Shown here one piece after another: positions 828 to 32,314 of a stretch of DNA of 64,000 nucleotides. Numbering within the stretch: position 1 is the first letter of the stretch; each line of letters opens with the position of its first letter. The notes below the pieces were generated by a model, which saw nothing but the letters and a program-made list of their open reading frames with translations, was not told the DNA's origin and did not search any database. The stretch is taken from contig NW_027506901.1 of NCBI RefSeq assembly GCF_052324685.1, positions 1,218,001-1,282,000 of the forward strand, in the 5' to 3' direction. The DNA is from Brachyhypopomus gauderio (lineage: Eukaryota; Chordata; Actinopteri; Gymnotiformes; Hypopomidae). The position numbers and the translations under genes were made by a program.

Positions 828-850
828 TAGAGAAGAAAATGTTGTATCCC

Positions 851-1003: not shown

Positions 1004-1010
1004 GAAAGAA

Positions 1011-10067: not shown

Positions 10068-10115
10068 CTCCCCGTCGGAGAATCGAACCCCGGTCTTCCG
10101 CGTGACAGGCGGAGA
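10068..10115 (-). pseudogene. truncated tRNA-Asp
   Basis: Unit 16. 52-bp deletion, gtcggag form. Confidence 0.9.
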
Positions 10116-10412: not shown

Positions 10413-10494
10413 TCTGCAATGGCCGAGAGGTTAAGGCGTTGGACTTGAAATCCAATGGGGTTTCCCTGCGCAGGTTCGACTCCTGCTTGCAGCG
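10413..10494 (+). tRNA. trnas-uga: tRNA-Ser(TGA), acceptor mismatch
   Basis: Unit 17. Anticodon 10446-10448; T1 mismatch, variable-arm C to T, normal T arm; same form as units 4, 25, 30 and 53. Confidence 0.65.
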
Positions 10495-10677
10495 TAGAGA
10501 AGAAAATGTTGTATCCCTTTTTGGATGTGTGGTAAAATAGAGTCTACTCTCCTCATGGTTGCCAGTTTTTAATATGCTTCTCATGCCATTTGTAAATTTG
10601 TGCTGTCAAACTGTAGCAGTCCAGTGGAAAGACTGTCTGGTCACTGGTTTCTCTGCCTTGTGCTTAAAAAGAAAGAA

Positions 10678-10725
10678 CTCCCCGTCGGAGAATCGAACCC
10701 CGGTCTTCCGCGTGACAGGCGGAGA
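10678..10725 (-). pseudogene. truncated tRNA-Asp
   Basis: Unit 17. 52-bp deletion, gtcggag form. Confidence 0.9.
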
Positions 10726-11022
10726 GTGAGGTGACTTGCACCTGTACCCTTGATTTTGAAAGTTGCATAAAAAAGATCTGCAATCAATAGATCAAACGCC
10801 ACATCTCACTTTTGATTCACAGAATGCCACGCTTTTGAACACCTGATCACCTGGAGTTGATACCAGCTGGAAGTTAACAGTGTGTAGACTCTTATGGAGA
10901 TTCATGTATTTGAATTTACTTCTTAAGCCATTGGCAACTCAGAATCAATGACATATGTGCACTCCTCCTTGAGCTTGAGGAAGTCAAAGGAATTGATCTC
11001 GATTCTACTCCTACACATTTGG

Positions 11023-11104
11023 GCTGCAATGGCCGAGAGGTTAAGGCGTTGGACTCGAAATCCAATGGGGTTTCCCCGCGCAGGTTCGACTCCTGCTTGC
11101 AGCG
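11023..11104 (+). tRNA. trnas-cga: tRNA-Ser(CGA)
   Basis: Unit 18. Consensus; anticodon 11056-11058. Confidence 0.92.
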
Positions 11105-11287
11105 TAGAGAAGAAAATGTTGTATCCCTTTTTGGATGTGTGGTAAAATAGAGTCTACTCTCCTCATGGTTGCCAGTTTTGAATATGCTTCTCATGCCATT
11201 TGTAAATTTGTGCTGTCAAACTGTAGCAGTCCAGTGGAAAGACTGTCTGGTCACTGGTTTCTCTGCCTTGTGCTTAAAAAGAAAGAA

Positions 11288-11359
11288 CTCCCCGTCGGGG
11301 AATCGAACCCCGGTCTTCCGCATGACAGGCGGAGATACTATCCACTATACTAACGAGGA
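11288..11359 (-). tRNA. trnad-guc: tRNA-Asp(GTC)
   Basis: Unit 18. C38 to T in the anticodon loop; shared with units 26, 31 and 34. Its upstream spacer holds the piggyBac insertion, 229 bp away. Confidence 0.85.
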
Positions 11360-11588
11360 CGTATGTTTTATCATGCAGTGATGCTGAGTGAGGTGACTTG
11401 CACCTGTACCCTTGATTTTGAAAGTTGCATTAAAAAGATCTGCAATCAATAGATCAAACGCCACATCTCACTTTTGATTCACAGAATGCCACGCTTTTGA
11501 ACACCTGATCACCTGGAGTTGATACCAGCTTGAAGTTAACAGTGAGTAGACTCTTATGGAGATTCATGTATTTGAATTTACTTCTTAA

Positions 11589-11601
11589 CACTAGAGCTCC
11601 T
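11589..11601 (+). repeat. piggyBac left terminal inverted repeat
   Basis: CACTAGAGCTCCT, directly after TTAA at 11585-11588. Perfect 13-bp partner at the other end. Confidence 0.93.
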
Positions 11602-12788
11602 AGAGAAGCGAAAATTTTCACAGGGCTTGGTAAGGTCCATGTAGCCCACTCCCCTGCTGTGAAGGGATTAACGCCCATTGTCTTGGTAATGCGGTGGAAG
11701 CGGCTCACCCCCGCTCATACGCCTGCCAAAGCCCTGGCTCTCCCCCAAGCTCATACGCCTGCCAAAGCACTCGCTCACCCCCAAGCTCATACGACTTCAC
11801 GAAAAACTTTTCAAGGTTACAAAGTCGGTATATGTTACCGATGCTACAACAAACAGCGGAAAATTTGTAGACTCGTGTTTCAAGTTACAATTCAAGCGCA
11901 CGTAGAGACGACAAGTTTCTGTAATGAGTCCCATCAAACTATAAAAATAAATAAAATTGTTTGAATCTTGCTCTTTGTATATTTCCTATACTATACTGTA
12001 TAATATTTGTTGTAATCAAACACTTTCTGATTCCGCGTTTGAATTCGCGTTTGAAAAGCTAAGAAATTATTAGGCGCAATTAGCTTGATGCTAATGTTAT
12101 ATAGGAAATCTCATCATATGGCTAGCGGAAATTAGCGTGATCGCGTTGCATCACTGCATCACTGATAAATATTGTGATCTAAACAGCAGGCTGGAAAAGG
12201 AGAGGAAAAGACAGGAAAACAAATTCATGTGCTGCAAAACAACTTTATTCTGATCAAATATGGATGTCTATTCCGGGTTTCTTGAAGTGGAATGTCCATT
12301 CCGGGTGTGGTGAAGTGCGACTCTGGAACAGAAAGAAGAGATTATTGGAGATTATAAAAAGCGATAGGAGATTATAGTGTGTATGTGTGCCTCTTGTGCT
12401 CGCAGTGTTTTTGAACTTTCCTTTCCATGATGTCGACAGGTGTAAGTGCGTCTAGTGCTCGCGGGGTATTTGAACCTTCTGGTCCATGATGGCGATGCCA
12501 CACTGAAGAACAATTCAAAGTACACCTTACATTTTGAATAAGATCTTTCAGAAGACAAAAAAATATGTACCACCACATATACTTATCAACGTACCTTCAT
12601 GTAGTTGTAGCTAACACTTGCTACACAGCCAGGGTGTATTCGCCAGGTGTACTCGCCGCATGCAACACACGCGTTGATACTGTGGAGAACAATTCAAAGT
12701 ACACCTTACATTTTGAATAAGATCTTTCAGAAGACAAAAAATATGTACCACCACATATACTTATCAACGTACCTTCATGTAGTTGTAG
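11602..12788. other. piggyBac 3' flank with duplicated exon-3 fragments
   Basis: No gene. A candidate polyadenylation signal AATAAA for the minus-strand transposase lies at 12244-12249, about 540 nt past the stop. Two stretches (about 12507-12633 and 12686-12812) are copies of each other with a 179-bp offset, and the second includes the end of the transposase reading frame. Around 12370-12505 two copies of a roughly 65-bp segment resemble the start of exon 3 (13139-13180). Between 11716 and 11790 there is a short imperfect repeat of the phrase ctcatacgcctgccaaagc. Confidence 0.7.
12244..12249 (-). promoter_or_regulatory. candidate poly(A) signal of the transposase
   Basis: TTTATT on plus, AATAAA on minus. 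Distance of about 540 nt from the stop is long but possible; no other AATAAA on the minus strand was noticed nearer. Confidence 0.4.
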
Positions 12789-14895
12789 CTAACACTTGCT
12801 ACACCGCCAGGGACCCTCGTTCTTACATTTGCGGCAGGTGTACTTGCCGCATTCAACACACACGTTGATGCTGTGGTTGCGGTTGCAGTGTGACTGCACT
12901 TGACACGTGGTCGTCTTTCCAGGTGAAGGCGAAGGACGTGGCGTTTTCTTCAACTCCTTTTCCTGTAGATGACGATGACGAAGTTCCCCAGCAAGAGCAT
13001 ATAGAAAAACTCTCCTGCTCTCTGTGGACCCCGTGCATGCTGTGTACAAAACATGCGCGTTCATCGCTGCCAGGTCAAGTATGTTATAAAACACTGCAAC
13101 GGGCCACCGGCGTGTTCCTGCGCGCACTGTGTATGAACGCACCTTCTGATCCATGATGTCAACGGCGCACTGCAAAGAACAATTACAAAGAAGTACATGT
13201 TATATTTTGAACGAATTCATTCATGTATAAATTGATTCTGCCATGCCAACACATATGCATACCTTCATCCGGTTGTAGTCCGTCACGGTGTTTGGCTTCT
13301 TTTTTCTGTCGTCGGCAATCCTCACGTGCGTATGCATAGTGCTGAGAACGCAGACGACTTTATTAGCCTTGGGGGCATACACCGTCAGCAGCGCATCATG
13401 TGATCTGTACAGCTCTGTTGAAAACTTGTCACGTCCCTTGGTGTTTTTGGCTTCCGTGGGAATTTCCCGTCGAATCTTATTTATTGTCCCAAGCAGAGTT
13501 GTGTTGGCCTCCAGCAACTTTTCAGCCAGTGAAAGAGATGTGAAGAAATTGTCCGTGGCTACAGTTCTTCCCTTGCCCAGGTATGGCTTCATGAGTTTCA
13601 TAACCACATTCTCGGACACTCTTTCACCCTTGGGACGATCGGGGTCCTTTCCCAGATATGGAATTGCGTTGCACATGAACTTCGTCTTCAAGTCAGAAGC
13701 AACCCAAAACTTAATCCCAAATTTGTCCGGCTTTGATGCAATGTACTGTGTGAACGGACAGCAAACCTTGGTAGGAAACAGCTGCTCGTCGACTGTAAGA
13801 TCTTGACCGGGGGTGTAAGACAGGTTGCAATTCTTCACAAATCGCTGCCAGATGTCCGAGATCGCAGCAAACTTGTCGCTCTTCGCACGCTCCGCACGGG
13901 TGTCCTTGTTATCAAACCGCAGGTACCGCATAATTTCCTGGTACCGGTCCCGCGGCATTGTCTCCTTGATCGAAGGCACAGCGAACATTGCTGACCAACA
14001 CTCCGTCATGGCTCCAACAGGAGAGAGGACTGCACGTAGAAAAAGGATGGCTACGAACGCCATCAATTCACTGACCGAAAAACTCCAGGTGCGGTCTGTT
14101 CTGTGGGCTTCATGGACTGTGCAATCGGTGATGAGTCGCAGCATCTCCATGTCGAGCAAACACAGAAAACTCTGCAGCCTACTTGTGATCCTACGCTGTA
14201 TGAGTAAAAATAAATAAATGACGCAAGGTTAATTACACGTACGAAATATCAGTCAAACACAAGCATAAACACTGCAAAGAATATTACGTTACTACGTTGT
14301 ATGAGTAAAAATAAATAAATGACGCAAGGTTAATTACATGTACGAAATATCAGTCAAACACAAGCATAAACACTGCAAAGAATATTACGTTACTACGTTG
14401 TATGAGTAAAAATAAATAAATGACGCAAGGTTAATTACACGTACGAAATATCAGTCAAACACAAGCATAAACACTGCAAAAAATATTACGTTACTATACC
14501 TTGGCATGTTCTGTAGGCCCAGCCGGCTCAACGAATGATGAATTGGGCAAACGGCTGACATGAGAGCGTGTGATGTCAACCTTCTCCCACACAGTACCGT
14601 CTTTTGCCCGTACAGCCTGTGTAGAAGCGCTTGGTCCAGGTGTGGTGTCGGCCTGTGTAGCGCTTGGTCCAGGTGTGGTGTCGGCCTGTGTACGATTCCT
14701 CTTTCTTGGAGGGCTCTTCTTTACCTCATCCGATGAAAAGTTTGTGTCTTCATCCGATGAATCGCTGGTAAAACTACAGCAAGAAAGTTCCTCTCCCCCA
14801 TCGGACTCGCAGCAGTCCACGTTTGTAAGGATGGTCGCAAGTTCTTTAGCAGTGTACCTCCTCTGGTGCGCCATAGTGTTTTCCGTCTTCTCCAC
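12789..14895 (-). CDS. piggyBac transposase, three exons
   Basis: Spliced model: exon 1 14895-14500 (132 aa), exon 2 14195-13263 (311 aa), exon 3 13169-12789 (126 aa plus stop), 569 aa in total. Both introns have GT..AG ends and phase 0. Order of parts: an acidic, Ser/Asp-rich N-terminus, then a basic stretch KKSPPRKRNR (possible nuclear signal), then a duplicated QADTTPGPSA segment. The DDE/D core carries catalytic Asp at residue 268 (LTVDEQLF), 347 (ATDNFF) and 447 (CAVDIMDQ), close to the positions known in the Trichoplusia ni enzyme. The C-terminus is Cys/His-rich (CVECGKYTCRKC, then WRCSKC), matching the family's zinc-binding end domain. The family cuts and pastes at TTAA without leaving a scar. 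Length is normal for the family. The start could instead be the second Met (residue 8, MAHQRRY). Nothing seen disables it. Family assignment is firm; activity is inference. Confidence 0.9.
13170..13262 (-). other. transposase intron 2
   Basis: 93 bp. Donor AAG|GTATGC at 13262 and acceptor TTTGCAG at 13170. It separates the YNRMK motif from the third catalytic Asp, so splicing is needed for a complete active site. Confidence 0.8.
14196..14499 (-). repeat. transposase intron 1, made of three 101-bp repeats
   Basis: The 304-bp intron is almost exactly three tandem copies of a 101-bp unit (breaks near 14297 and 14398). Donor AAG|GTATAG. The copy next to exon 2 ends catacAG and serves as acceptor; the other two read catacaac and lack AG at that point. 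Each copy also holds a tttgcAG that could act as an alternative acceptor. Confidence 0.8.
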
Positions 14896-15184
14896 ACAGG
14901 ATAGTAAGGAAAATGTAAGTCACCAGCATTTGTGTTTCTGCTTTTATCATGACTCTGAAGAACACACCCACAGCAGCTCATACAAATGTAAATCTGGGAC
15001 GCTTCATACATAACGCCGAAACCACGCTAATGACATACATACATGGGACCCGTGATAATGGTTCAAATATGTAAATGTGTTGCGCTATTGAAATGTGGCG
15101 CTATTCCTGCTTCTATCATGACTGAAGAACACACCCACAGACAGCAGCTCATACTAACTGAACATACCCCTAACTGAAAAGAAA
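14896..15184. other. transposase upstream region with diverged minisatellite copy
   Basis: No ORF of interest. About 14992-15100 is a diverged copy of the 125-bp unit found at 15514-17089. The phrase gaacacacccacag occurs here twice and again near 15357 and 17104, so the 5' flank itself has been duplicated. No TATA box could be identified with confidence. Confidence 0.6.
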
Positions 15185-15225
15185 AATCTATCTATCTATC
15201 TATTTACTATCTATCTATCTATTTA

Positions 15226-15293
<68 letters not shown>

Positions 15294-15294
15294 G
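15185..15294. repeat. (TATC)n microsatellite
   Basis: Nearly pure tetranucleotide run with two tttac interruptions at its left side. Confidence 0.95.
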
Positions 15295-15414
15295 CTTCAT
15301 AAATAACGCCAATACCACGCTAATGATAATGTGTTTCAGCTTCTATCATGACTGAAGAACACACCCACAGACAGCAGCTCATACTAACTGAACATACCCC
15401 TCACTGAAAAGAAA

Positions 15415-15432
15415 AATCTATCTATCTATCTA

Positions 15433-15496
<64 letters not shown>

Positions 15497-15513
15497 CTAT
15501 CTATCTATCTATC
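15415..15513. repeat. compound (TATC)n(TC)n(TA)n(TATC)n microsatellite
   Basis: Four successive simple runs. The same order, with TG added, recurs at 17160-17296. Confidence 0.95.
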
Positions 15514-17089
15514 GACGCTTCATAACGACAATAACACGCTAATGATAATGTGTTTCACGGGAACACTATGGACCCGTGATAATGGTTCAGCGATGTAAAT
15601 GTGTGGCGCTATTGAAGTGCATACACAAGAAAATCTGGGACGCTTCATAACGACAATACCACGCTAATGATAATGTGTTTCACGGGAACAATATAGACCC
15701 GTGATAATGGTTCAGCGATGTAAATGTGTGGCGCTATTGAAGTGCATACACAAGAAAATCTGGGACGCTTCATAACGACAATACCACGCTAATGATAATG
15801 TGTTTCACGGGAACACTATGGACCCGTGATAATGGTTCAGCGATGTAAATGTGTGGCGCTATTGAAGTGCATACACAAGAAAATCTGGGACGCTTCATAA
15901 CGACAATACCACGCTAATGATAATGTGTTTCACGGGAACAATATAGACCCGTGATAATGGTTCAGCGATGTAAATGTGTGGCGCTATTGAAGTGCATACA
16001 CAAGAAAATCTGGGACGCTTCATAACGACAATACCACGCTAATGATAATGTGTTTCACGGGAACAATATAGACCCGTGATAATGGTTCTGCGATGTAAAT
16101 GTGTGGCGCTATTGAAGTGCATACACAAGAAAATCTGGGACGCTTCATAACGACAATAACACGCTAATGATAATGTGTTTCACGGGAACAATATAGACCC
16201 GTGATAATGGTTCAGCGATGTAAATGTGTGGCGCTATTGAAGTGCATACACAAGAAAATCTGGGACGCTTCATAACGACAATACCACGCTAATGATAATG
16301 TGTTTCACGGGAACACTATGGACCCGTGATAATGGTTCAGCGATGTAAATGTGTGGCGCTATTGAAGTGCATACACAAGAAAATCTGGGACGCTTCATAA
16401 CGACAATACCACGCTAATGATAATGTGTTTCACGGGAACAATATAGACCCGTGATAATGGTTCAGCGATGTAAATGTGTGGCGCTATTGAAGTGCATACA
16501 CAAGAAAATCTGGGACGCTTCATAACGACAATACCACGCTAATGATAATGTGTTTCACGGGAACACTATGGACCCGTGATAATGGTTCTGCGATGTAAAT
16601 GTGTGGCGCTATTGAAGTGCATACACAAGAAAATCTGGGACGCTTCATAACGACAATAACACGCTAATGATAATGTGTTTCACGGGAACAATATAGACCC
16701 GTGATAATGGTTCAGCGATGTAAATGTGTGGCGCTATTGAAGTGCATACACAAGAAAATCTGGGACGCTTCATAACGACAATACCACGCTAATGATAATG
16801 TGTTTCACGGGAACACTATGGACCCGTGATAATGGTTCTGCGATGTAAATGTGTGGCGCTATTGAAGTGCATACACAAGAAAATCTGGGACGCTTCATAA
16901 CGACAATAACACGCTAATGATAATGTGTTTCACGGGAACAATATAGACCCGTGATAATGGTTCAGCGATGTAAATGTGTGGCGCTATTGAAGTGCATACA
17001 CAAGAAAATCTGGGACGCTTCATAACGACAATACCACGCTAATGATAATGTGTTTCACGGGAACACTATGGACCCGTGATAATGGTTCA
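15514..17089. repeat. 125-bp minisatellite inside the piggyBac element
   Basis: About 12.6 tandem copies; for example cgcttcataacg recurs at 15641, 15766 and 15891. Two alleles alternate irregularly: gaacactatggac and gaacaatatagac. Each unit holds an inverted repeat CACGGG/CCCGTG around an 11-bp loop. No ORF. Confidence 0.95.
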
Positions 17090-17159
17090 TAATAATGACT
17101 GAAGAACACACCCACAGACAGCAGCTCATACTAACTGAGCATACCCCTAACTGAAAAGA
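17090..17159. other. fourth copy of the 5'-flank phrase
   Basis: Repeats the segment with gactgaagaacacacccac and catacccctaactgaaaag seen at about 15118-15182. Confidence 0.7.
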
Positions 17160-17700
<541 letters not shown>

Positions 17701-17713
17701 AGGAGCTCTAGTG
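17701..17713 (-). repeat. piggyBac right terminal inverted repeat
   Basis: AGGAGCTCTAGTG, followed by TTAA at 17714-17717. Confidence 0.93.
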
Positions 17714-17813
17714 TTAAGCCATTGGCAACTCAGAATCAATGACATCTGTGCACTCCTCCTTGAGCTTGAGGAAGTCAAAGGAATTGATCTCGATTCTACT
17801 CCTACACATTTGG

Positions 17814-17895
17814 GCTGCAATGGCCGAGAGGTTAAGGCGTTGGACTCGAAATCCAATGGGGTTTCCCCGCGCAGGTTCGACTCCTGCTTGCAGCG
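17814..17895 (+). tRNA. trnas-cga: tRNA-Ser(CGA)
   Basis: Unit 19. Consensus; anticodon 17847-17849. Confidence 0.92.
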
Positions 17896-18078
17896 TAGAG
17901 AAGAAAATGTTGTATCCCTTTTTGGATGTGTGGTAAAATAGAGTCTACTCTCCTCATGGTTGCCAGTTTTGAATATGCTTCTCATGCCATTTGTAAATTT
18001 GTGCTGTCAAACTGTTGCAGTCCAGTGGAAAGACTGTCTGGTCACTGGTTTCTCTGCCTTGTGCTTAAAAAGAAAGAA

Positions 18079-18150
18079 CTCCCCGTCGGGGAATCGAACC
18101 CCGGTCTTCCGCGTGACAGGCGGAGATACTATCCACTATACTAACGAGGA
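18079..18150 (-). tRNA. trnad-guc: tRNA-Asp(GTC)
   Basis: Unit 19. Consensus. Confidence 0.92.
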
Positions 18151-18432
18151 CGTATGTCTTATCATGCAGTGATGCTGAGTGAGGTGACTTGCACCTGTAC
18201 CCTTGATTTTGAAAGTTGCATAAAAAAGATCTGCAATCAATAGATCAAACGCCACATCTCACTTTTGATTCACAGAATGCCACGCTTTTGAACACCTGAT
18301 CACCTGGAGTTGATACCAGCTTGAAGTTAACAGTGAGTAGACTCTTATGGAGATTCATGTATTTGAATTTACTTCTTAAGCCATTGGCAACTCAGAATCA
18401 ATGACATCTCTGCACTCCTCCTTGAGCTTGAG

Positions 18433-18868
18433 TAAGTAAACGTAGTGGGCTTTTGGGATTTTGATGAACTAAATAAATTGCCATTGTACGCAATAGTGGG
18501 GCAATGGGATTGTAACCCGAATTTGGATCCCAATTGCCGTTTAACTAAATTGCCGAATGGACACCTTTGTGATTTCCTTACTGACCACACTGGTAAGTCA
18601 ATAGGGGCTTCGTGGACGCCTGTAGGGGCGCCCTCGCGCTGTCCGTGGACCACGCCCGATACCGGCCACTGATCCGAAGTCAGTTTTAAGTCGTGGCACG
18701 TGGCATAATGGGCAAGCTGGCAAGGGATCCCACTTCCAATTTATTCAATGTGTTGGCATGCTATTCAAATAGATTGCAAGTGGGAGGTTTCAACACACCT
18801 CCCCCAAACCCCACCCACATCCCATTTCTAGTTTATACCATGTGTTTGCTTGGTATTGAAATAGATTG
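18433..18868. other. left end of the 13.8-kb insertion
   Basis: Mostly single-copy within the window, no gene. Contains scattered variants of the motif cccaattccaattta (for example near 18530 and 18730) that build the inner arrays. Confidence 0.6.
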
Positions 18869-19512
18869 CAATTGGGATGTTGGCCACCACCCACCCCAGG
18901 TGGGCGTGTACAAGTTCAGGAATTAAAGGTAGGGGCACAGGAAGAGAACCGAAGGTCGTAGGGGTCCGAAACTTGGTGGGGGGGTAGTGTGGGACCCCCT
19001 AAACAACATATTGAAGCCCCGCCCCCAAAAGTGGGCGTGGCCGGAAGTAGATGTTCCCATGGTCCGATTGGCTCGAGACTTGATAGGGGAGTAGTGTGGG
19101 ACCCCCTAAACAACATATTGAAGCCCCGCCCCCAAAAGTGGGCGTGGCCGGAAGTAGATGTTCCCATGGTCCGATCGGCTCGAGACTTGATAGGGGAGTA
19201 GTGTGGGACCCCCTAAACAACATATTGAAGCCCCGCCCCCAAAAGTGGGCGTGGCCGGAAGTTGTAGTTCCCATGGGCCAATCGGCTCGAAACTTTGCAG
19301 GGTAGTTCTGTTAGGGACCTCAAACAACATATTAAAAGCTCGTGTCCGTAGGTGGTCGGGAAGTCGAAAAACGAACCAGGAAGTGGAACAGGAAGTGACT
19401 TTCCCGAGGTCGTAGGGTCATGAAATTTCATAGGGCATGTCTGAGAGGGCTCCGGCACAACATACTGTAAGCCCGAGTCCGAACGCCAAGCGGAATTTTC
19501 ACACCGCCCAAC
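18869..19512. repeat. GC-rich 107-bp repeat block, copy 1
   Basis: Units start gtgtgggacc at 18987, 19094 and 19201, with a diverged tail to 19512. Each unit includes gccccgcccccaaaagtggg. ORFs on both strands are by-products of the repeat. Confidence 0.9.
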
Positions 19513-19860
19513 CAAATCCTTACTAACCCTTTCGCATCCCAATTCCAATTTATCTCACATAGTGCTCATAGATGGTTCGTGGACACAAATCCTATTCACC
19601 TAGTCCATTGAAAATAATTTTCAGGAATATTTTTTTCTGATTTTTTTACAAGGCTCTGGAAGGGCCTAGACATGCGGTTTTCGGATATGTGGTCGAGGGC
19701 CCCGGGACGAACCAGCATTCGACGCCCCGACTTCGAAGCTCCTCCCTAAACCCTGATTGGCCGCATCCCAATCCCAATCTATTTCCATTCATTTTTCGTG
19801 GACACATTGAAAAAGCAATTACCTGTTGGCATGCTTAAATAGATGGCAAGTGGGATGGTT
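19513..19860. other. spacer between the two GC-rich blocks
   Basis: No gene and no internal repeat; ends with a variant of the ccaatcccaatctattt motif. Confidence 0.6.
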
Positions 19861-20430
19861 AGACACACAATAGATTGCAATTGGGATGTTGGCCACCACC
19901 CACCCCAGGTGGGCGTGTACAAAGTTCAGAATTAGAGTTAAGAGCACAGGAAGAGAACCGAATATCGTAGGGGCCCGAAACTTGATAGGGGGGTAGTGTG
20001 GGACCCCTAAAACAACATATTGAAGCCCCGCCCCCAAAAAGTGGGCGTGGCCGGAAGTAGGTGTTCCCATAGGCCGATTGGCTTGAGACTTCATAGGGGA
20101 GTAGTGTGGGGCCCCTAAAACAACATATTTAAGCCCCGCCCCCAAAAGTGGGCGTGGCCGGAAGTAGGTGTTCCCATGGGCCAATCGGCTCGAAACTTTG
20201 CAGGGGAGTTATGTTAGGGACCCCAAACAACATACTAAAAGCTCGTGTCCGTAAGTGGGCGGGAAGTCAAAAAACGAACCAGGAAGTGGAACAGGAAGTG
20301 ACTTTCCCGAGGTCGGAGGGTCATGAAATTTCATAAGGGATGTCTGAGAGGGCTTTGGAACAACATACTGTAAGCACGGAGCCCTAGGTCATACCGTTTG
20401 GGCGTGGCTAAGTTTTAAAGGTGTTTTTTT
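19861..20430. repeat. GC-rich 107/108-bp repeat block, copy 2
   Basis: Direct duplicate of the block at 18869-19512 including the leader ttggccaccacccacccc; units start at 19996 and 20104. Confidence 0.9.
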
Positions 20431-21949
20431 TCTAACACAGAACAGTCACAAGCATACATTTGGGGCCGCTGAAGGGCCAAAATTTGACGTAAAGGTCCCA
20501 AAATCGGTCGGGGTCATGTATGTTATGGCCTAAAAGAGGATCCCAAGGCCCAAGTCCGTAGCTCAAAGCGTTGGCGTATGGCAACAAAAAAGATAATGCA
20601 CTGTAGGGAGAGGCCTAAAGTTTAAACGCATATTTTCATACATTTGGGGCCGCTGAGGGGCCAAAATTTAACCTAGGGGTCCCAAAATCGGTCGAGGTCA
20701 TGTATGTTATGGCCTAAAAGAGGATCCCAAGGCCCAAGTCCGTAGCTCGAAGCGTTGGCGTATGGCAGCAAAAAAGATATTGCACTGTAGGGAGAGGCCT
20801 AAAGTTTAAACGCATATTTTCATACATTTGGGGCCGCTGAGGGGCCAAAATTTAACCTAGGGGTCCCAAAATCGGTCGAGGTCGTCTCTGTGATGGCCCG
20901 ATGGAGGATCCCGAGTTGCAAGTCCGTAGCTCAAAGCGTTGGCGTATGGCAGCCTAAAAGATATTGCGCTGTAGTCGTAGGCCAAAGGTCAAACAGAAAT
21001 GTACATACATTTGGGGCCGCTGAGGGCCCAAAATTTAACCTAGGGGTCCCAAAATCGGTCGAGGTCATGTATGTTATGGCCTAAAAGAGGATCCCAAGGC
21101 CCAAGTCCGTAGCTCGAAGCGTTGGCGTATGGCAGCAAAAAAGATATTGCACTGTAGGGAGAGGCCTAAAGTTTAAACGCATATTTTCATACATTTGGGG
21201 CCGCTGAGGGGCCAAAATTTAACCTAGGGGTCCCAAAATCGGTCGAGGTCGTCTCTGTGATGGCCCGATGGAGGATCCCGAGTTGCAAGTCCGTAGCTCA
21301 AAGCGTTGGCGTATGGCAGCCTAAAAGATATTGCGCTGTAGTCGTAGGCCAAAGGTCAAACAGAAATGTACATACATTTGGGGCCGCTGAGGGCCCAAAA
21401 TTTAACCTAGGGGTCCCAAAATCGGTCGAGGTTGTCTCTGTGATGGCCCGATGGAGGATCCCAAGGCCCAAGTCCGTAGCTCGAAGCGTTGGCGTATGGC
21501 AGCAAAAAAGATATTGCACTGTAGGGAGAGGCCTAAAGTTTAAACGCATATTTTCATACATTTGGGGCCGCTGAGGGGCCAAAATTTGACGTAGGGGTCC
21601 CAAAATCGGTCGAGGTCGTCTCTGTGATGGCCCGATGGAGGATCCCGAGTTGCAAGTCCGTAGCTCAAAGCGTTGGCGTATGGCAGCCTAAAAGATATTG
21701 CGCTGTAGTCGTAGGCCAAAGGTCAAACAGAAATGTACATACATTTGGGGCCGCTGAGGGCCCAAAATTTAACCTAGGGGTCCCAAAATCGGTCGAGGTT
21801 GTCTCTGTGATGGCCCGATGGAGGATCCCAAGTTGCAAGTCCGTAGCTCAAAGCGTTGGCGTATGGCAGCCATTAATCTATTGCGCTGTAGTCGTACACC
21901 TAAAGGTCAAACACAAATGTGCACACACTTGTGGCTCCTGAGAGTCTAA
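20431..21949. repeat. 184-bp satellite, first array
   Basis: catttggggccgctga recurs at 20457, 20641, 20825, 21008, 21192, 21375, 21559 and 21742. From 20825 on, units alternate between 183 and 184 bp and between two sequence types, giving a 367-bp dimeric higher-order repeat. Confidence 0.93.
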
Positions 21950-22560
21950 ACCTGCACGTATCCACACATGCCTGCAGAGTGTTATTAGACCCAACAAATT
22001 GATAAAGATAGTGCATGCACAGACTCATAGGTCATATGGTTTGGGTGTGGCTATCATTTGAATTTGCACTTTTAGGCAGAATCTCCAACACTTAAAGCAC
22101 AAGACCATGTGTGCGGGGCCCCTGAAGGACCAAACCTGCACGTATCCACACGTGCCTGCAGAGTGTTATTAGACCCAACAAATTGATAAAGATAGTGCAT
22201 GCACAGACTCATAGGTCATATGGTTTGGGTGTGGCTATCATTTGAATTTGCACTTTTAGGCAGAATCTCCTCTAACACTTAAAGCACAAGACCATGTGTG
22301 CGGGGCCCCTGAAGGACCAAACCTGCACGTATCCACACGTGCCTGCAGAGTGTTATTAGACCCAACAAATTGATAAAGATAGTGCATGCACAGACTCATA
22401 GGTCATATGGTTTGGGTGTGGCTATCATTTGAATTTGCACTTTTAGGCAGAATCTCCTCTAACACTTAAAGCACAAGACCATGTGTGTGGGGCCCCTGAA
22501 GGACCAAACCTGCACGTATCCACACGTGCTTCCAGAGTGTTAATATACCCCACCCACTGA
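21950..22560. repeat. related 184-187-bp satellite, second subfamily
   Basis: cctgcacgtatccacac recurs at 21951, 22135, 22322 and 22509. Shares phrases such as aggtcata and gggtgtggcta with 20381-20412 and 22590-22615, so it descends from the same ancestor as the flanking arrays. Confidence 0.9.
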
Positions 22561-23930
22561 GGAAGATACTCCGAGCACAGACCCTTAGGTCATACGGATT
22601 GGGCGTGGCTAACTTTTGAAAGTGATTTTTTTCTAACACAGAGAGGTCACGAGCATACATTTGGGGATGCTGAGGGGCCAAAATTTGACGTAGAGGTCCC
22701 AAAATCGGTCGAGGTCATCTCTGTGATGGCCCGATGGACCATCCCAAGTTGCAAGTCCGTAGCTCGAAGCGTTGGCGTATGGCAGCCATTAATCTATTGC
22801 GCTGTAGTCGTAGGCCTTAAGGTCAAACACAAATTTTCATACATTTGGGGCCCCTGAGGGGCCAAAATTTGACGTAGAGGTCCCAAAATCGGTCGAGGTC
22901 GTCTCTGTGATGGCCCGATGGACCATCCCAAGTTGCAAGTCCGTAGCTCGAAGCGTTGGCGTATGGCAGCCATTAATCTATTGCGCTGTAGTCGTAGGCC
23001 TTAAGGTCAAACCCAAATTTTCATACATTTGGGGCCCCTGAGGGGCCAAAATTTGACGTAGAGGTCCCAAAATCGGTCGAGGTCGTCTCTGTGATGGCCC
23101 GATGGACCATCCCAAGTTGCAAGTCCGTAGCTCGAAGCGTTGGCGTATGGCAGCCATTAATCTATTGCGCTGTAGTCGTAGGCCTTAAGGTCAAACCCAA
23201 ATTTTCATACATTTGGGGCCCCTGAGGGGCCAAAATTTGACGTAGAGGTCCCAAAATCGGTCGAGGTCGTCTCTGTGATGGCCCGATGGACCATCCCAAG
23301 TTGCAAGTCCGTAGCTCGAAGCGTTGGCGTATGGCAGCCATTAATCTATTGCGCTGTAGTCGTAGGCCTTAAGGTCAAACCCAAATTTTCATACATTTGG
23401 GGCCCCTGAGGGGCCAAAATTTGACGTAGAGGTCCCAAAATCGGTCGAGGTCGTCTCTGTGATGGCCCGATGGACCATCCCAAGTTGCAAGTCCGTAGCT
23501 CGAAGCGTTGGCGTATGGCAGCCATTAATCTATTGCGCTGTAGTCGTAGGCCTTAAGGTCAAACCCAAATTTTCATACATTTGGGGCCCCTGAGGGGCCA
23601 AAATTTGACGTAGAGGTCCCAAAATCGGTCGAGGTCGTCTCTGTGATGGCCCGATGGACCATCCCAAGTTGCAAGTCCGTAGCTCGAAGCGTTGGCGTAT
23701 GGCAGCCATTAATCTATTGCGCTGTAGTCGTAGGCCTTAAGGTCAAACCCAAATTTTCATACATTTGGGGCCCCTGAGGGGCCAAAATTTGACGTAGAGG
23801 TCCCAAAATCGGTCGAGGTCGTCTCTGTGATGGCCCGATGGACCATCCCAAGTTGCAAGTCCGTAGCTCGAAGCGTTGGCGTATGGCAGCCATTAATCTA
23901 TTGCGCTGTAGTCGTAGGCCTTAAGGACCC
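22561..23930. repeat. 184-bp satellite, third array, homogeneous
   Basis: catttgggg recurs at 22658, 22842, 23026, 23210, 23394, 23578 and 23762 with a constant 184-bp step and very few differences, the most recently amplified of the three arrays. Confidence 0.93.
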
Positions 23931-24553
23931 CATTCAAATAGATTGGAATTGGACGATTTGTACTTACCGATCCCAATTCCAATCTATTTGAATGGGACCC
24001 CATTCAAATAGATTGGAATTGTACGATTTGTACTTACCGATCCCAATTCCAATCTATTTGAATGGCATCCCAATTCCAATTTATTTGACTGATGGAAATA
24101 AATTGGAATTGGGATCCCATTCAAATAGATTGGAAGTGGGATCGGTAAGTACAAATTGTCCAATTCCAATTTATTTGAATGGGGTCCCATTGAAATAGAT
24201 TGGAATTGGGATCGGTAAGTACAAATTGTCCAATTCCAATTTATTTGAATGGGGTCCCATTGAAATAGATTGGAATTGGGATCGGTAAGTACAAATCGTC
24301 CAATTCCAATTTATTTGAATGGGGTCCCATTGAAATAGATTGGAATTGGGATCGGTAAGTACAAATTGTCCAATTCCAATTTATTTGAATGGCATCCCAA
24401 TTCCAACTTATTTAAGTGATGGAAATAAATTGGAATTGGGATCCCATTCAAATAGATTGGAATTGGGATCGGTAAGTACAAATCGTCCAATTCCAATTTA
24501 TTTGAATGGCATCCCAATTCCAATCTATTTAACACATGGAAATAAATTGGAAT
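23931..24553. repeat. hairpin repeat array 1
   Basis: Built of inverted pairs of the motif ccaattccaatttatttgaa (arms of about 20-23 bp) around a loop containing ggtaagtacaaat. Translations on either strand are repetitive artefacts. Confidence 0.92.
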
Positions 24554-25168
24554 TGGGATGCAGTAAAATGAGGTTATAAGTTATTTTACAAAACACTTAT
24601 TTTAAGCTTAAAAAACCATTTATCCATACTCCCCATGTCTGTCTGATGCAAACTGAGTGGTCAGAGTTTTGAAATTCCACTGTCCAATACCCCACTATTT
24701 TGATGACTTGAATAAATTGGAAGTGGGATCTCTATATCTCAGCTTCAGAATGACATAGCTTGAAAATTTCAACACTCAGCACTAAGTTTAGGTGTGCCTG
24801 ACTCACTGTGTGAGTTTGGAGAAGATTGCAGAAAGTCAAAATTTTGGCTCAAAAAAACTCTAAGGGGTTAGTGTGTGTGTTTTTTTGAAGCAAAATTTTG
24901 ACTTTCTGCAAACTTCACCAAACTCACACAGTGAGTTAGGAGGACTCAAACTTAGAGAGGAGTGGTAAAAGAATCGTGCTATCATATTCCAAAGCTGAGA
25001 TCTGGAGATCCCACTTCCAATTTATTCAAGTCATCAAAATAGTGGGGTTTTGGACACCACAGTCTGACAACTCTGAACACCCAGCTTGCATAAACCAGAC
25101 ATGGGGAGCATGGATAAATGGTTTTTGAAGTGTTTTAGTGATAAGAAAAAAAAACTTAGAAATCAATG
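24554..25168. repeat. 0.6-kb imperfect palindrome, copy 1
   Basis: Arms of roughly 290 bp, left from about 24575 and right ending about 25145. Matching landmarks: ccatttatccatactcccc against its reverse complement near 25103-25121, and gacttgaataaattggaagt against 25012-25031. Looks like a foldback unit. No gene. Confidence 0.85.
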
Positions 25169-27189
25169 TATTTGAATGGCATCCCAATTCCAATTTATTT
25201 GACTGATGGAAATAAATTGGAATTGGGATCCCATTCAAATAGATTGGAATTGGGATCGGTAAGTACAAATTGTCCAATTCCAATTTATTTGAATGGGGTC
25301 CCATTGAAATAGATTGGAATTGGGATCGGTAAGTACAAATTGTCCAATTCCAATTTATTTGAATGGGGTCCCATTGAAATAGATTGGAATTGGGATTGGT
25401 AAGTACAAATCGTCCAATTCCAATTTATTTGAATGGGGTCCCATTGAAATAGATTGGAATTGGGATCGGTAAGTACAAATTGTCCAATTCCAATTTATTT
25501 GAATGGCATCCCAATTCCAATTTATTTAAGTGATGGAAATAAATTGGAATTGGGATCCCATTCAAATAGATTGGAATTGGGATTGGTAAGTACAAATTGT
25601 CCAATTCCAATTTATTTGAATGGCATCCCAATTCCAATTTATTTAAGTGATGGAAATAAATTGGAATTGGGATCCCATTGAAATAGATTGGAATTGGGAT
25701 CGGTAAGTACAAATTGTCCAATTCCAATTTATTTGAAAGGGGTCCCATTGAAATAGATTGGAATTGGGATCGGTAAGTACAAATTGTCCAATTCCAATTT
25801 ATTTGAATGGGGTCCCATTGAAATAGATTGGAATTGGGATCGGTAAGTACAAATTGTCCAATTCCAATTTATTTGAATGGGGTCCCATTGAAATAGATTG
25901 GAATTGGGATTGGTAAGTACAAATCGTCCAATTCCAATTTATTTGAATGGGGTCCCATTGAAATAGATTGGAATTGGGATCGGTAAGTACAAATTGTCCA
26001 ATTCCAATTTATTTGAATGGCATCCCAATTCCAATTTATTTAAGTGATGGAAATAAATTGGAATTGGGATCCCATTGAAATAGATTGGAATTGGGATCGG
26101 TAAGTACAAATTGTCCAATTCCAATTTATTTGAATGGCATCCCAATTCCAATTTATTTAAGTGATGGAAATAAATTGGAATTGGGATCCCATTGAAATAG
26201 ATTGGAATTGGGATCGGTAAGTACAAATTGTCCAATTCCAATTTATTTGAAAGGGGTCCCATTGAAATAGATTGGAATTGGGATCGGTAAGTACAAATTG
26301 TCCAATTCCAATTTATTTGAATGGGGTCCCATTGAAATAGATTGGAATTGGGATCGGTAAGTACAAATTGTCCAATTCCAATTTATTTGAATGGGGTCCC
26401 ATTGAAATAGATTGGAATTGGGATTGGTAAGTACAAATCGTCCAATTCCAATTTATTTGAATGGGGTCCCATTGAAATAGATTGGAATTGGGATCGGTAA
26501 GTACAAATTGTCCAATTCCAATTTATTTGAATGGCATCCCAATTCCAATTTATTTAAGTGATGGAAATAAATTGGAATTGGGATCCCATTGAAATAGATT
26601 GGAATTGGGATCGGTAAGTACAAATTGTCCAATTCCAATTTATTTGAATGGCATCCCAATTCCAATTTATTTAAGTGATGGAAATAAATTGGAATTGGGA
26701 TCCCATTGAAATAGATTGGAATTGGGATCGGTAAGTACAAATTGTCCAATTCCAATTTATTTGAATGGGGTCCCATTGAAATAGATTGGAATTGGGATTG
26801 GTAAGTACAAATCGTCCAATTCCAATTTATTTGAATGGGGTCCCATTGAAATAGATTGGAATTGGGATCGGTAAGTACAAATTGTCCAATTCCAATTTAT
26901 TTGAATGGCATCCCAATTCCAATTTATTTAAGTGATGGAAATAAATTGGAATTGGGATCCCATTGAAATAGATTGGAATTGGGATCGGTAAGTACAAATT
27001 GTCCAATTCCAATTTATTTGAATGGCATCCCAATTCCAATTTATTTAAGTGATGGAAATAAATTGGAATTGGGATCCCATTGAAATAGATTGGAATTGGG
27101 ATCGGTAAGTACAAATTGTCCAATTCCAATTTATTTGAATGGCATCCCAATTCCAATTTATTTAAGTGATGGAAATAAATTGGAATTGG
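25169..27189. repeat. hairpin repeat array 2 with 514-bp higher-order period
   Basis: Same hairpin motif as array 1. The block recurs at about 25425, 25939 and 26453, an exact step of 514 bp. Confidence 0.92.
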
Positions 27190-27806
27190 GATGCAGTAAA
27201 ATGAGGTTATAAGTTATTTTACAAAACACTTATTTTAAGCTTAGAAAACCATTTATCCATACTCCCCATGTCTGTCTGATGCAAACTGAGTGGTCAGAGT
27301 TTTGAAATTCCACTGTCCAATACCCCACTATTTTGATGACTTGAATAAATTGGAAGTGGGATCTCTATATCTCAGCTTCAGAATGACCTAGCTTGAAAAT
27401 TTCAATGCTCAGCACTAAGTTTAGGTGTGCCTGACTCACTGTGTGAGTTTGGAGAAGATTGCAGAAAGTCAAAATTTTGGCTCAAAAAAACTCTAAGGGG
27501 TTAGTGTGTGAGTTTTTTTGGGGCAAAATTTTGACTTTCTGCAAACTTCACCAAACTCACACAGTGAGTTAGGAGGACTCAAACTTAGAGAGGAGTGGTA
27601 AAAGAATCGTGCTATCATATTCCAAAGCTGAGATCTGGAGATCCCACTTCCAATTTATTCAAGTCATCAAAATAGTGGGGTTTTGGACACCACAGTCTGA
27701 CAACTCTGAACACCCAGCTTGCATAAACCAGACATGGGGAGCATGGATAAATGGTTTTTGAAGTGTTTTAGTGATAAGAAAAAAAAACTTAGAAATCAAT
27801 GTATTT
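27190..27806. repeat. 0.6-kb imperfect palindrome, copy 2
   Basis: Near-identical to copy 1, with a handful of substitutions. Confidence 0.87.
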
Positions 27807-28982
27807 GAATGGCATCCCAATTCCAATTTATTTGACTGATGGAAATAAATTGGAATTGGGATCCCATTGAAATAGATTGGAATTGGGATCGGTAAGTACA
27901 AATTGTCCAATTCCAATTTATTTTAATGGCATCCCAATTCCAATTTATTTAAGTGATGGAAATAAATTGGAATTGGGATCCCATTGAAATAGATTGGAAT
28001 TGGGATTGGTAAGTACAAATTGTCCAATTCCAATTTATTTGAATGGCATCCCAATTCCAATTTATTTAAGTGATGGAAATAAATTGGAATTGGGATCCCA
28101 TTGAAATAGATTGGAATTGGGATCGGTAAGTACAAATTGTCCAATTCCAATTTATTTGAATGGGGTCCCATTGAAATAGATTGGAATTGGGATCGGTAAG
28201 TACAAATTGTCCAATTCCAATTTATTTGAATGGGGTCCCATTGAAATAGATTGGAATTGGGATTGGTAAGTACAAATCGTCCAATTCCAATTTATTTGAA
28301 TGGGGTCCCATTGAAATAGATTGGAATTGGGATCGGTAAGTACAAATTGTCCAATTCCAATTTATTTGAATGGCATCCCAATTCCAATTTATTTAAGTGA
28401 TGGAAATAAATTGGAATTGGGATCCCATTGAAATAGATTGGAATTGGGATCGGTAAGTACAAATTGTCCAATTCCAATTTATTTGAATGGCATCCCAATT
28501 CCAATTTATTTAACTGATGGAAATAAATTGGAATTGGGATCCCATTGAAATAGATTGGAATTGGGATCGGTAAGTACAAATTGTCCAATTCCAATTTATT
28601 TGAATGGGGTCCCATTGAAATAGATTGGAATTGGGATCAGTAAGTACAAATTGTCCAATTCCAATTTATTTGAATGGGGTCCCATTGAAATAGATTGGAA
28701 TTGGGATTGGTAAGTACAAATCGTCCAATTCCAATTTATTTGAATGGGGTCCCATTGAAATAGATTGGAATTGGGATCGGTAAGTACAAATTGTCCAATT
28801 CCAATTTATTTGAATGGCATCCCAATTCCAATTTATTTAAGTGATGGAAATAAATTGGAATTGGGATCCCATTGAAATAGATTGGAATTGGGATCGGTAA
28901 GTACAAATTGTCCAATTCCAATTTATTTGAATGGCATCCCAATTCCAATTTATTTAACTGATGGAAATAAATTGGAATTGGG
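27807..28982. repeat. hairpin repeat array 3
   Basis: Same family as arrays 1 and 2. Confidence 0.92.
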
Positions 28983-29592
28983 ATGCAGTAAAATGAGGTT
29001 ATAAGTTATTTTACAAAACACTTATTTTAAGCTTAGAAAACCATTTATCCATACTCCCCATGTCTGTCTGATGCAAACTGGGTGGTCAGAGTTTTGAAAT
29101 TCCACTGTCCAATACCCCACTATTTTGATGACTTGAATAAATTGGAAGTGGGATCGCCAGATCTCAGCCTTAGAATGACATAGCTTGAAAATTTCAACGC
29201 TCAGCACTAAGTTTAGGTGTGCCTGACTCACTGTGTGAGTTTGGAGAAGATTGCAGAAAGTCAAAATTTTGGCTCAAAAAAACTCTAAGGGGTTAGTGTG
29301 TGAGTTTTTTTGGGGCAAAATTTTGACTTTCTGCAAACTTCACCAAACTCACACAGTGAGTTAGGAGGACTCAAACTTAGAGAGGAGTGGTGAAAGAATT
29401 GTGCTATCATGTTCCAAAGCTGAGATCTGGAGATCCCACTTCCAATTTATTCAAGTCATCAAAATAGTGGGGTTTTGGACACCACAGTCTGACAACTCTG
29501 AACACCCAACTTGCATAAACCAGACATGGGGAGCATGGATAAATGATTTTTGAAGTGTTTTAGTGATAAGAAAAAAAACTTAGAAATCAATG
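28983..29592. repeat. 0.6-kb imperfect palindrome, copy 3
   Basis: As copies 1 and 2, slightly more diverged (for example gggatcgccagatctc in place of gggatctctatatctc). Confidence 0.87.
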
Positions 29593-30238
29593 TATTTGAA
29601 TGGCATCCCAATTCCAATTTATTTGACTGATGGAAATAAATTGGAATTGGGATCCCATTCAAATAGATTGGAATTGGGATCGGTAAGTACAAATCGTCCA
29701 ATTCCAATCTATTTGAATGGGGTCCCATTGAAATAGATTGGAATTGGGATCGGTAAGTACAAATCGTCCAATTCCAATTTATTTGAATGGGGTCCCATTG
29801 AAATAGATTGGAATTGGGATCGGTAAGTACAAATCGTCCAATTCCAATTTATTTGAATGGGGTCCCATTGAAATAGATTGGAATTGGGATCGGTAAGTAC
29901 AAATCGTCCAATTCCAATTTATTTGAATGGGGTCCCATTGAAATAGATTGGAATTGGGATCGGTAAGTACAAATCGTCCAATTCCAATTTATTTGAATGG
30001 GGTCCCATTCAAATAGATTGGAATTGGGATCGGTAAGTACAAATCGTCCAATTCCAATTTATTTGAATGGCATCCCAATTCCAATTTATTTGACTGATGG
30101 AAATAAATTGGAATTGGGATCCCATTCAAATAGATTGGAATTGGGATCGGTAAGTACAAATTGTCCAATTCCAATTTATTTGAATGGCATCCCAATTCCA
30201 ATTTATTTGACTGATGGAAATAAATTGGAATTGGGATG
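29593..30238. repeat. hairpin repeat array 4
   Basis: Same family. The monomer type with a loop ending aaatcgtcc dominates. Confidence 0.92.
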
Positions 30239-30765
30239 CGATAGAGTTTGGGTTAGTGGTGTAAAAATTCCGCTTGGCTTTCGGACTCGTGCTTACAGTA
30301 TGTTGCTCCAGTGCCCCCCCAGACCTCCCCTATGAAATTTCATGACCCTACGACCTCGGGAAAGTCACTTCCTGTTCCACTTCCTGGTTCATTTTTCGAC
30401 TTCCCGACCACCTACGGACACGAGCTTTTAGTATGTTGTTTGTGGTCCCAAATAGAACTCCCCTGCAAAGTTTTGAGCCGATCGGCCCATGGGAACACCT
30501 ACTTCCGGTCACGCCCACTTTTAGGGGCGGGGCTTAAATATGTTGTTTGAGGGGTCCCACACTACCCCCCTATCAAGTCTCGAGCCGATCGGCCCATGGG
30601 AACACCTACTTCCGGCCACGCCCACTTTTAGGGGGCGGGGCTTCAATATGTTGTTTAGGGGGTCCCACACTACCCCCCTATCAAGTTTCGGACCCCTACG
30701 ACATTCCTGAACTTGTACAAGCCCACCTGGGGTGGGTAGTGGCCAACATCCCAATTGCAATCTAT
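30239..30765 (-). repeat. inverted copy of the GC-rich block
   Basis: Reverse complement of the 18869-19512 / 19861-20340 family: aaagtcacttcctgttcc here against ggaacaggaagtgacttt there, plus two 107-bp type units. It gives the insertion its inverted-repeat architecture. Confidence 0.9.
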
Positions 30766-31990
30766 TTGAATAGGCATCCCATAATAGCTGAAATAGATTG
30801 GAAGTGGGATAGGTAATCACAAAACATCCCAATTGCAATCTATTTGAATAGGCATCCCATAATAATGGAAATAAATTGGAAGTGGGATTGGTAATCACAA
30901 AACATCCCAATAGCAATCTATTTGAATAGGCATCCCATAATAGCTGAAATAGATTGGAAGTGGGATAGGTAATCACAAAACATCCCAATAGCAATCTATT
31001 TGAATAGGCATCCCATAATAGTGGAAATAGATTGGAAGTGGGATCGGTAATCACAAAACATCCCAATTGCAATCTATTTGAATAGGCATCCCATAATAGC
31101 TGAAATAGATTGGAAGTGGGATAGGTAATCACAAAACATCCCAATTGCAATCTATTTGAATAGGCATCCCATAATAGCTGAAATAGATTGGAAGTGGGAT
31201 AGGTAATCACAAAACATCCCAATTGCAATCTATTTGAATAGGCATCCCATAATAGTGGAAATAGATTGGAAGTGGGATAGGTAATCACAAAACATCCCAA
31301 TTGCAATCTATTTGAATAGGCATCCCATAATAATGGAAATAAATTGGAAGTGGGATTGGTAATCACAAAACATCCCAATTGCAATCTATTTGAATAGGCA
31401 TCCCATAATAGCTGAAATAGATTGGAAGTGGGATAGGTAATCACAAAACATCCCAATTGCAATCTATTTGAATAGGCATCCCATAATAATGGAAATAAAT
31501 TGGAAGTGGGATAGGTAATCACAAAACATCCCAATTGCAATCTATTTGAATAGGCATCCCATAATAGTGGAAATAGATTGGAAGTGGGATCGGTAATCAC
31601 AAAACATCCCAATTGCAATCTATTTGAATAGGCATCCCATAATAGCTGAAATAGATTGGAAGTGGGATAGGTAATCACAAAACATCCCAATTGCAATCTA
31701 TTTGAATAGGCATCCCATAATAATGGAAATAAATTGGAAGTGGGATAGGTAATCACAAAACATCCCAATTGCAATCTATTTGAATAGGCATCCCATAATA
31801 GCTGAAATAGATTGGAAGTGGGATAGGTAATCACAAAACATCCCAATTGCAATCTATTTGAATAGGCATCCCATAATAGCTGAAATAGATTGGAAGTGGG
31901 ATCGGTAATCACAAAACATCCCATTTGCAATCTATTTGATGAGGCATCCCATAATAATCGGAAAAATAAATTGGAAGTGGGATGTTTTTT
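30745..31990. repeat. 78-bp tandem array (about 16 copies)
   Basis: ggtaatcacaaaacatccc recurs every 78 bp (for example 30812 and 30890). Because 78 is a multiple of three, one frame on the minus strand stays open for 469 codons (30521-31930); its translation is a 26-residue repeat and starts inside the unrelated GC block, so I do not call it a gene. Each unit holds an imperfect inverted pair of the caatctattt motif. Confidence 0.93.
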
Positions 31991-32268
31991 ACTTACCTAT
32001 CCCACTTCCAATTTATTTGGATGTGCTCCACACTGTGGCCGAACTGTGTATCGCTCAAAAAACGCCCGTTTTTCAATAATTTATTGCCGGCCTCATGGGG
32101 GCGCTAGAGGCGGGGGGACAACTCCCCTCGTCTTTGGGGGTCCCCCCCTCGAGGCCTGACCCATCCACCGACCCGGCAAAAATCTGGGGGCTTCGGCGCG
32201 CAGCCCCCCTTTGGGGCCGTCAATTGGCCACTTAATAGATTGGGATTGGGATGTTGCTGCGCTAACTA
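31991..32268. other. right end of the 13.8-kb insertion, GC-rich hairpins
   Basis: No gene. Two strong inverted repeats: GGGGGGAC/GTCCCCCC at about 32113-32152 and GGGGGCT/AGCCCCC at about 32185-32210. Ends with ttgggattgggatg, a variant of the inner repeat motif, then gctgcgctaacta. Confidence 0.65.
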
Positions 32269-32314
32269 GAGGAAGTCAAAGGAATTGATCTCGATTCTAC
32301 TCCTACACATTTGG

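Follow-up and report, generated by a model that had tools for sequence, protein, structure and literature searches.

The window analyzed here is a 64-kb stretch of DNA from the gymnotiform fish Brachyhypopomus gauderio (contig NW_027506901.1, positions 1,218,001 to 1,282,000), and all coordinates below are positions within it. It carries a tandem array of tRNA-Ser and tRNA-Asp genes (1 to 11588, 17718 to 18432, and 32269 to 64000), built of 662-bp units with tRNA-Ser on the plus strand and tRNA-Asp on the minus strand, together with a 610-bp variant that lacks the tRNA-Asp gene. ARAGORN found 123 tRNA genes across the window, with both serine anticodons, CGA and TGA, present. Two insertions break the array, a piggyBac-like element (11589 to 17713) and the subject of this study, a giant mobile element of 13,836 bp (18433 to 32268, plus strand), which is a copy of a family that we call A.

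An earlier sequence-only reading had placed the borders of the giant element at GAG on both sides, and these borders are exact: the GAG of the host unit at 18430 to 18432, where the target reads CTTGAG^GAAGTCAAAG (^, junction), and the GAG at 32269 to 32271 enclose the element. It lies in the spacer, 46 bp upstream of tRNA-Ser. The sequence of the empty site can be read directly, as GAAGTCAAAGG occurs at 68 places in the window, one being the right junction and 67 being insert-free array units that read GAGGAAGTCAAAGG. The GAG repeat alone is weak evidence, since an apparent repeat of at least 3 bp arose by chance in 5.6% of simulated blunt insertions, and the proof comes from other copies. 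One of these, 23.1 kb long, occupies the same spacer position in the tRNA array 59 kb downstream of the window copy; the two could be independent insertions or products of array duplication.

Recurrence of the ends

All whole-genome comparisons were made against the assembly from which the window comes (796.5 Mb, 840 contigs). The left 500 bp of the element gave 42 rows, and 37 of them, that of the window included, begin at the same base; this count is a lower bound because only 40 of 531 candidates were scored. The five other rows are a copy on C9, in which the left end is interrupted, and two diverged copies of a second family, B, in two pieces each. In the C9 copy (L051), by reading, the interrupting sequence resembles the left region of the piggyBac-like element of the window. 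Right ends are sharp as well, and a pattern search placed them at 36 sites in the genome, families A and B together, with a pattern that misses variants such as those on C103 and C134. Among 20 fetched inner stretches, 15 contain the right end.

The ends can be written TAAGTAA...CTAACTA or TAAGTAA...GCGCTAACTA. Family B is a longer sister family with which A has its main target site in common; 19.2 kb of its copy C531 resembles the window element, and C531, by reading, carries a 15-bp inverted repeat, TTTCGCATCCCACTT, near both ends. Eleven family A left ends, including that of the window, are 100% identical over 500 bp, and of the 12 additional starts at the 18S rRNA gene, which are of family B, 11 are likewise identical over 500 bp. 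From these sequences, the spread of the family appears recent. One copy on C110 (L101/L047) is a hybrid, with a family A-like left end (98.8%) and a family B-type right end 22.1 kb apart, which suggests exchange between the families.

The sequence-only reading had proposed a giant non-autonomous DNA element with its own satellite arrays, and the proposal holds, as both ends recur base-precisely at many unrelated sites. It had also looked to a fixed spacing between co-occurring ends. The ends do recur together at many sites, but complete copies in the 18S gene span 10.9 to 28.3 kb, and an element of fixed length is rejected.

Insertion at the 18S rRNA gene

The principal target lies in the 18S rRNA gene: the insertion point, CTAGAG^GAAGTAAAAG, is 53 nt short of the 3' end of that gene. 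A pattern search found 28 left junctions at this site (17 of family A and 11 of family B) and 20 right junctions; reversed-pattern controls gave 0. We fetched 39 left ends, of which 38 had readable flanks (L051 came without its left end), and 20 of the flanks are distinct. A common 18S flank was seen in 17 of the 38, and the one scanned with Rfam (L017) contains SSU_rRNA_eukarya; identity to L019 runs for 446 to 458 bp, the full extent compared. On the other side, 18S sequence lies next to the right end in 8 of the 15 inner stretches that have one, and in the one scanned (L064) the flank consists of the last 53 nt of 18S followed by 5.8S and 28S.

Pairing by coordinates gave nine complete family A copies (10,865 to 18,958 bp) and six family B copies (23,682 to 28,253 bp) in 18S genes, some of these lengths including assembly gaps; the other 13 left junctions have no paired right junction in 18S. 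One 18S copy, on C365, is in the opposite orientation by the reading of its flank. On C458, a family A element with 18S on its left abuts the left end of a family B element, an arrangement whose sequence we read as stacking at a regenerated junction. The elements of both families showed no similarity, at the cutoffs used, to ribosomal DNA (rDNA) downstream of the site (8 loci), to the piggyBac copy, or to the tRNA unit.

Each of the 20 distinct left flanks has AG as its last two bases, the trinucleotide being GAG in 13, AAG in 3, TAG in 3, and CAG in 1. We read 31 right flanks (15 from the inner stretches, 14 further ones, that of the window, and that of C531), and all 31 begin with GAG. As the right flank reads GAG regardless of the variable left flank, the G is part of the element, and AG is all that the two sides share; this AG is a 2-bp duplication or else comes from the element itself. 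A 3-bp duplication of GAG, as anticipated from the window alone, is therefore rejected.

Outside 18S, the sites still lean toward the 18S sequence. The right flanks (n = 19) agree with GAAGTAAAAG at 90 of 190 positions, against a mean of 66.5 after shuffling, and 0 of 2,000 shuffles scored as high; three flanks had been dropped beforehand, those on C458 (another element), C365 (18S reversed), and C57b (the site of the window copy). The left flanks (n = 19) agree with CTAG before the AG at 38 of 76 positions (shuffled mean, 18.9; 0 of 2,000 as high). Single right sites range from 1 to 9 of 10 positions. The window site, CTTGAG^GAAGTCAAAG, itself imitates the 18S target. We compared both flanks of six copies outside 18S and found the whole hexamer on both sides only in those on C270 and C107; in C6, C26b, and C334 the two sides share just AG or GAG, and the window copy has CTTGAG on the left and CTAGAG on the right.

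When the two ends of the element are joined to each other, the junction resembles the target. The joined ends AACTAGAG^TAAGTAAACG and the 18S target ATCTAGAG^GAAGTAAAAG are identical at 15 of 18 positions (14 of 18 for family B), and the best 18-mer within the window element reaches 12 on the plus strand and 11 on the minus strand.

The family thus has exact ends, exact insertion, and a target preference, at many sites and in two families. The insertion in the window probably belongs to a family of giant DNA elements, gene-less and non-autonomous, that has spread recently and prefers the 18S site CTAGAG^GAAGTAAAAG. The new point is the target: this is a giant gene-less family aimed at 18S rDNA, and the window holds an off-target copy. 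No description of a satellite-bearing DNA element targeting 18S was found in the portion of the PubMed Central literature available under open license.

Coding content and the route of mobilization

The element is gene-less as far as tested, as the sequence-only reading had stated: its stop-to-stop frames of at least 80 codons look like satellite. The sole long frame of the window copy, 491 codons, runs across the 78-bp satellite and is open because 78 is divisible by 3; its counterpart is longer in several other copies. Pfam was run on seven frames of the window (six of the element plus the piggyBac transposase) and on seven frames of C531. The repetitive 491-codon frame scored above the cutoff for two families as a whole protein, yet no single stretch of it passed, and two further window frames matched only below family cutoffs. 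The family B copy C531, read whole (24,451 bp), has satellite-like frames only; no single stretch passed in its seven frames, and two repetitive ones exceeded cutoffs as whole proteins. Family B as the autonomous partner is rejected as far as this whole-read copy shows.

Neither the window copy nor C531 yielded a gene for a recombinase or transposase, in analyses that included no search aimed at Dada transposases. An autonomous relative with the same ends and a transposase, which had been put forward as something to look for, was not found in these analyses. PF12012, the Crypton-type domain and the recombinase family to which the genome search was confined, gave 23 hits genome-wide; by coordinates, even the one closest to any listed end of the element is about 2.9 Mb away. 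Several hits are in exon-like pieces, and the frame on C9 looks like what we take to be a host KCTD1-type gene. A Crypton-A-like tyrosine-recombinase element of 5 kb stands on C33 (L091), with equal-scoring places also on C1 and C2; in L091, the one transposable element-like copy read, neither end of the giant element is present.

Several observations weigh against a mobile family of this kind. The flanks of the copies on C25, C169, and C197 are discordant, with 18S on one side only, which may reflect assembly joins or exchange between copies, and several copies have N gaps of the assembly within them or nearby. The right end is absent from 5 of the 20 fetched inner stretches; those on C26a and C57b were later paired with a right end (at 22.3 and 23.1 kb, respectively), those on C359 and C61 have N gaps, and that on C833 meets the contig end. 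Some of the spread among 18S genes may be due to rDNA recombination and not to fresh insertion. At individual sites outside 18S the preference is weak, with 5 of 19 right flanks matching at 3 or fewer of 10 positions. A coding gene could lie in another copy, the interiors of the others having been read in part, and the genome does hold Crypton-type recombinase hits, although by coordinates none is near a listed end. Discordant flanks, gaps, unread interiors, and rDNA exchange do not, any of them, explain the many dispersed precise insertions.

As to the route, we propose that an enzyme encoded elsewhere would recognize a 20-bp motif (approximately ATCCCAnTTnCAATCTATTT) beside the ends and would join the ends of the element to the target at an AG. 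A circle with its ends joined as CTAGAG^TAAGTAAACG would then integrate by site-specific recombination; on such circles, the joined junction would be CTAACTAGAG^TAAGTAAA, i.e., CTAGAG^TAAGTAAA. Because the joined ends imitate the target, integration of a circle in this way is favored, and in sequence the joined ends and the 18S target look like an attP/attB pair. We give site-specific recombination of a circle by a tyrosine- or serine-recombinase-like enzyme slightly less than an even chance, and rank next, as rather unlikely, a Dada-like transposase of the DDE type, with the hexamer CTAGAG either carried along or duplicated. As no coding partner was found, neither is proved. The window copy would sit in a tRNA gene array because the spacer happens to resemble the 18S target, and the satellites probably arose by amplification of the putative enzyme-binding motif into arrays that grew by slippage and by unequal exchange of hairpin units. 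Tentatively, and with less confidence than in the recombination of a circle, the family may represent a new class of giant gene-less selfish DNA that homes to 18S by att-like recombination of its joined ends with the rRNA gene, stacks in tandem where junctions are regenerated, and is composed mainly of arrays in which its own enzyme-binding site has been amplified.

The strongest rival places the family in the Dada superfamily, as a non-autonomous member for which 18S would be a new target; a DDE transposase would duplicate the 6 bp CTAGAG, and at sites elsewhere the old hexamer would be carried on the right. Dada elements have no terminal inverted repeat, have sub-terminal inverted repeats, make 6- to 7-bp duplications in multicopy RNA genes, carry near their ends a repeat that recurs as part of the target gene, and sometimes keep the old target hexamer on one side; replacement of the duplication on one side is reported. 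The present families are alike in their multicopy RNA gene target, in the target-like sequence they carry, in the missing terminal inverted repeat of family A, in the 15-bp inverted repeat near both ends of family B, and in having CTAGAG on both sides in 18S. A 6-bp duplication, however, fits the 18S copies and not those on C6, C26b, and C334, the whole hexamer being common to the two sides in just two of the six compared. The known Dada targets lie inside small RNA genes, and the transposase is known, whereas the sites here are in 18S or dispersed, and the window copy lies in a spacer of the tRNA array; the main text of the fish Dada paper does not contain the term "18S". We consider this explanation unlikely.

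A Crypton-like or other tyrosine-recombinase element, non-autonomous here, is somewhat more doubtful. In animal Cryptons no terminal repeats were found; these elements have non-autonomous derivatives, and recombination at a short shared sequence has been proposed for them. The window copy, too, has no terminal inverted repeat, its joined ends resemble the target, and the Crypton-type domain is present in this genome. A route by tyrosine recombinase also has a precedent in crustacean whispoviruses (endogenous nimaviruses), whose integration in 28S rDNA was linked to such an enzyme by the authors. Against this stand the distance of every Crypton-type hit from the listed ends, the copy read without element ends, and an invariant core of only AG, shorter than the 4- to 6-bp repeats described for Cryptons generally. 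With PF12012 as the family searched, no tyrosine recombinase with the present ends was found, and an 18S target was not seen in the accessible Crypton literature.

That the element is a Helitron-like rolling-circle element or a passenger of a non-long-terminal-repeat (non-LTR) retrotransposon of the R-element type is improbable. Tandem repeats are common in Helitrons, and CTAG occurs in the right end here; however, Helitrons begin with TC, end with CTRR, and insert between A and T, and the present left end starts with TA at a site that is AG^G, not A^T. For a non-LTR passenger, no reverse transcriptase matched in the six window-element and seven C531 frames tested, and the 37 of 42 left-end rows noted above (40 of 531 candidates scored) are complete at the 5' end. 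R8 retrotransposons of Hydra do insert in the 18S rRNA gene, a likeness at the level of the gene, but they are retrotransposons with reverse transcriptase. The remaining idea, that an immobile satellite segment was translocated by break repair with GAG as microhomology, has next to no probability: chance repeats in blunt insertions would allow the GAG, but the recurrence of both ends at many unrelated sites refutes it.

Two further systems bear comparison. Pokey and mPok, of the piggyBac superfamily in Daphnia 28S rDNA, are DNA elements that occupy one rDNA site and other places as well; outside rDNA they weakly prefer flanks that resemble it. They also have head-to-tail copies and non-autonomous relatives. 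They differ in their TTAA duplication, inverted terminal repeats, coding members, and 28S target, and mPok elements are non-autonomous miniature inverted-repeat transposable elements, whereas the elements here are satellite carriers of 11 to 28 kb. The giant element has AG^G rather than TTAA as its target and no terminal inverted repeat. The 28S rDNA-specific whispoviruses are likewise large DNAs integrated at an rDNA site, but they are gene-rich viral genomes of crustaceans, whereas the element studied here yielded no gene.

DNA elements aimed at rRNA genes are rare, and a giant, gene-less, recently spread family with one fixed position in 18S lends itself to asking how noncoding DNA can be aimed at rDNA. 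It also serves questions on the origin of satellites inside mobile elements and on the tolerance of rDNA arrays to interruptions of 11 to 28 kb. As the ends and the target are sharp, the missing enzyme can be searched for directly.

Anatomy of the window copy

The left end (18433 to 18726, plus strand; 294 bp) begins with TAAGTAAACG and is single-copy in the window except for weak matches to the 20-bp motif. It is followed on the plus strand by two degenerate units of the hairpin repeat of that motif (18727 to 18898) and by two copies of a block, A, of GC-rich 107-bp repeats (18869 to 19556 and 19861 to 20400). Next come a 184-bp satellite array (20453 to 23926, plus strand), in which a 187-bp array is embedded (21948 to 22620), and 70/117-bp satellite arrays that extend over about 6.3 kb and consist of the motif in inverted pairs (23925 to 30237, plus strand). 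An inverted copy of block A (30217 to 30766, minus strand) precedes a 78-bp satellite of 15.8 copies, again of inverted motif pairs (30745 to 31983, plus strand). The right end (32020 to 32268, plus strand; about 250 bp) has the motif at 32233 with two mismatches and ends in GCGCTAACTA.

Three imperfect palindromes of about 600 to 650 bp stand as islands between the satellite arrays (24560 to 25165, 27193 to 27800, and 28985 to 29595, plus strand), the halves of the first being imperfect inverted repeats. As the islands are 97.5 to 98.9% alike, they have probably spread by duplication within the element. The interior, earlier described as satellite throughout, is nearly so, the exceptions being these islands and the first 294 bp and last approximately 250 bp, which are single-copy besides the motif.

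With up to 4 mismatches allowed, the motif, AAATARATTGSAAKTGGGAT, has 190 occurrences in the element, most of them in inverted pairs, and none in the remainder of the window; when the bases of the element were shuffled five times, each shuffle contained 0 or 1 match. It lies near the right end in the window copy and near both ends in family B. A 23-mer of the motif was found at 0 places in viral contigs, and a 20-mer gave two single matches there; scans of the motif in prokaryote contigs gave six single matches. All of these look like chance.

The subterminal inverted block seen in the sequence-only reading is real, with 19074 to 19556 pairing with 30690 to 30217 (89.9% over 484 bp) and a second pairing of 19869 to 20378 with 30766 to 30288 (87.3% over 510 bp). 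The weak terminal inversion reported alongside it has no support in the window copy, where the outermost 15 to 60 bp align no better than shuffles; the sole outlier is the terminal 13 bp, whose global score was reached by 15 of 1,000 shuffles and whose local score was reached by 320 of 1,000. Foldback-type elements have long inverted blocks of tandem subrepeats and are similar in this respect, but the inverted blocks here stop short of the ends, and the ends are not inverted repeats.

Both ends (18433 to 18726 and 32020 to 32268) contain GC-rich stretches with GGGGGCGCTA-like motifs that may resemble CTCF sites. The neighboring piggyBac-like element (11589 to 17713) lies between TTAA copies, has 125-bp and 101-bp tandem repeats of its own, and contains a transposase frame of 312 codons (13221 to 14159) that matches DDE_Tnp_1_7 in Pfam with an E value of 7.3e-60.

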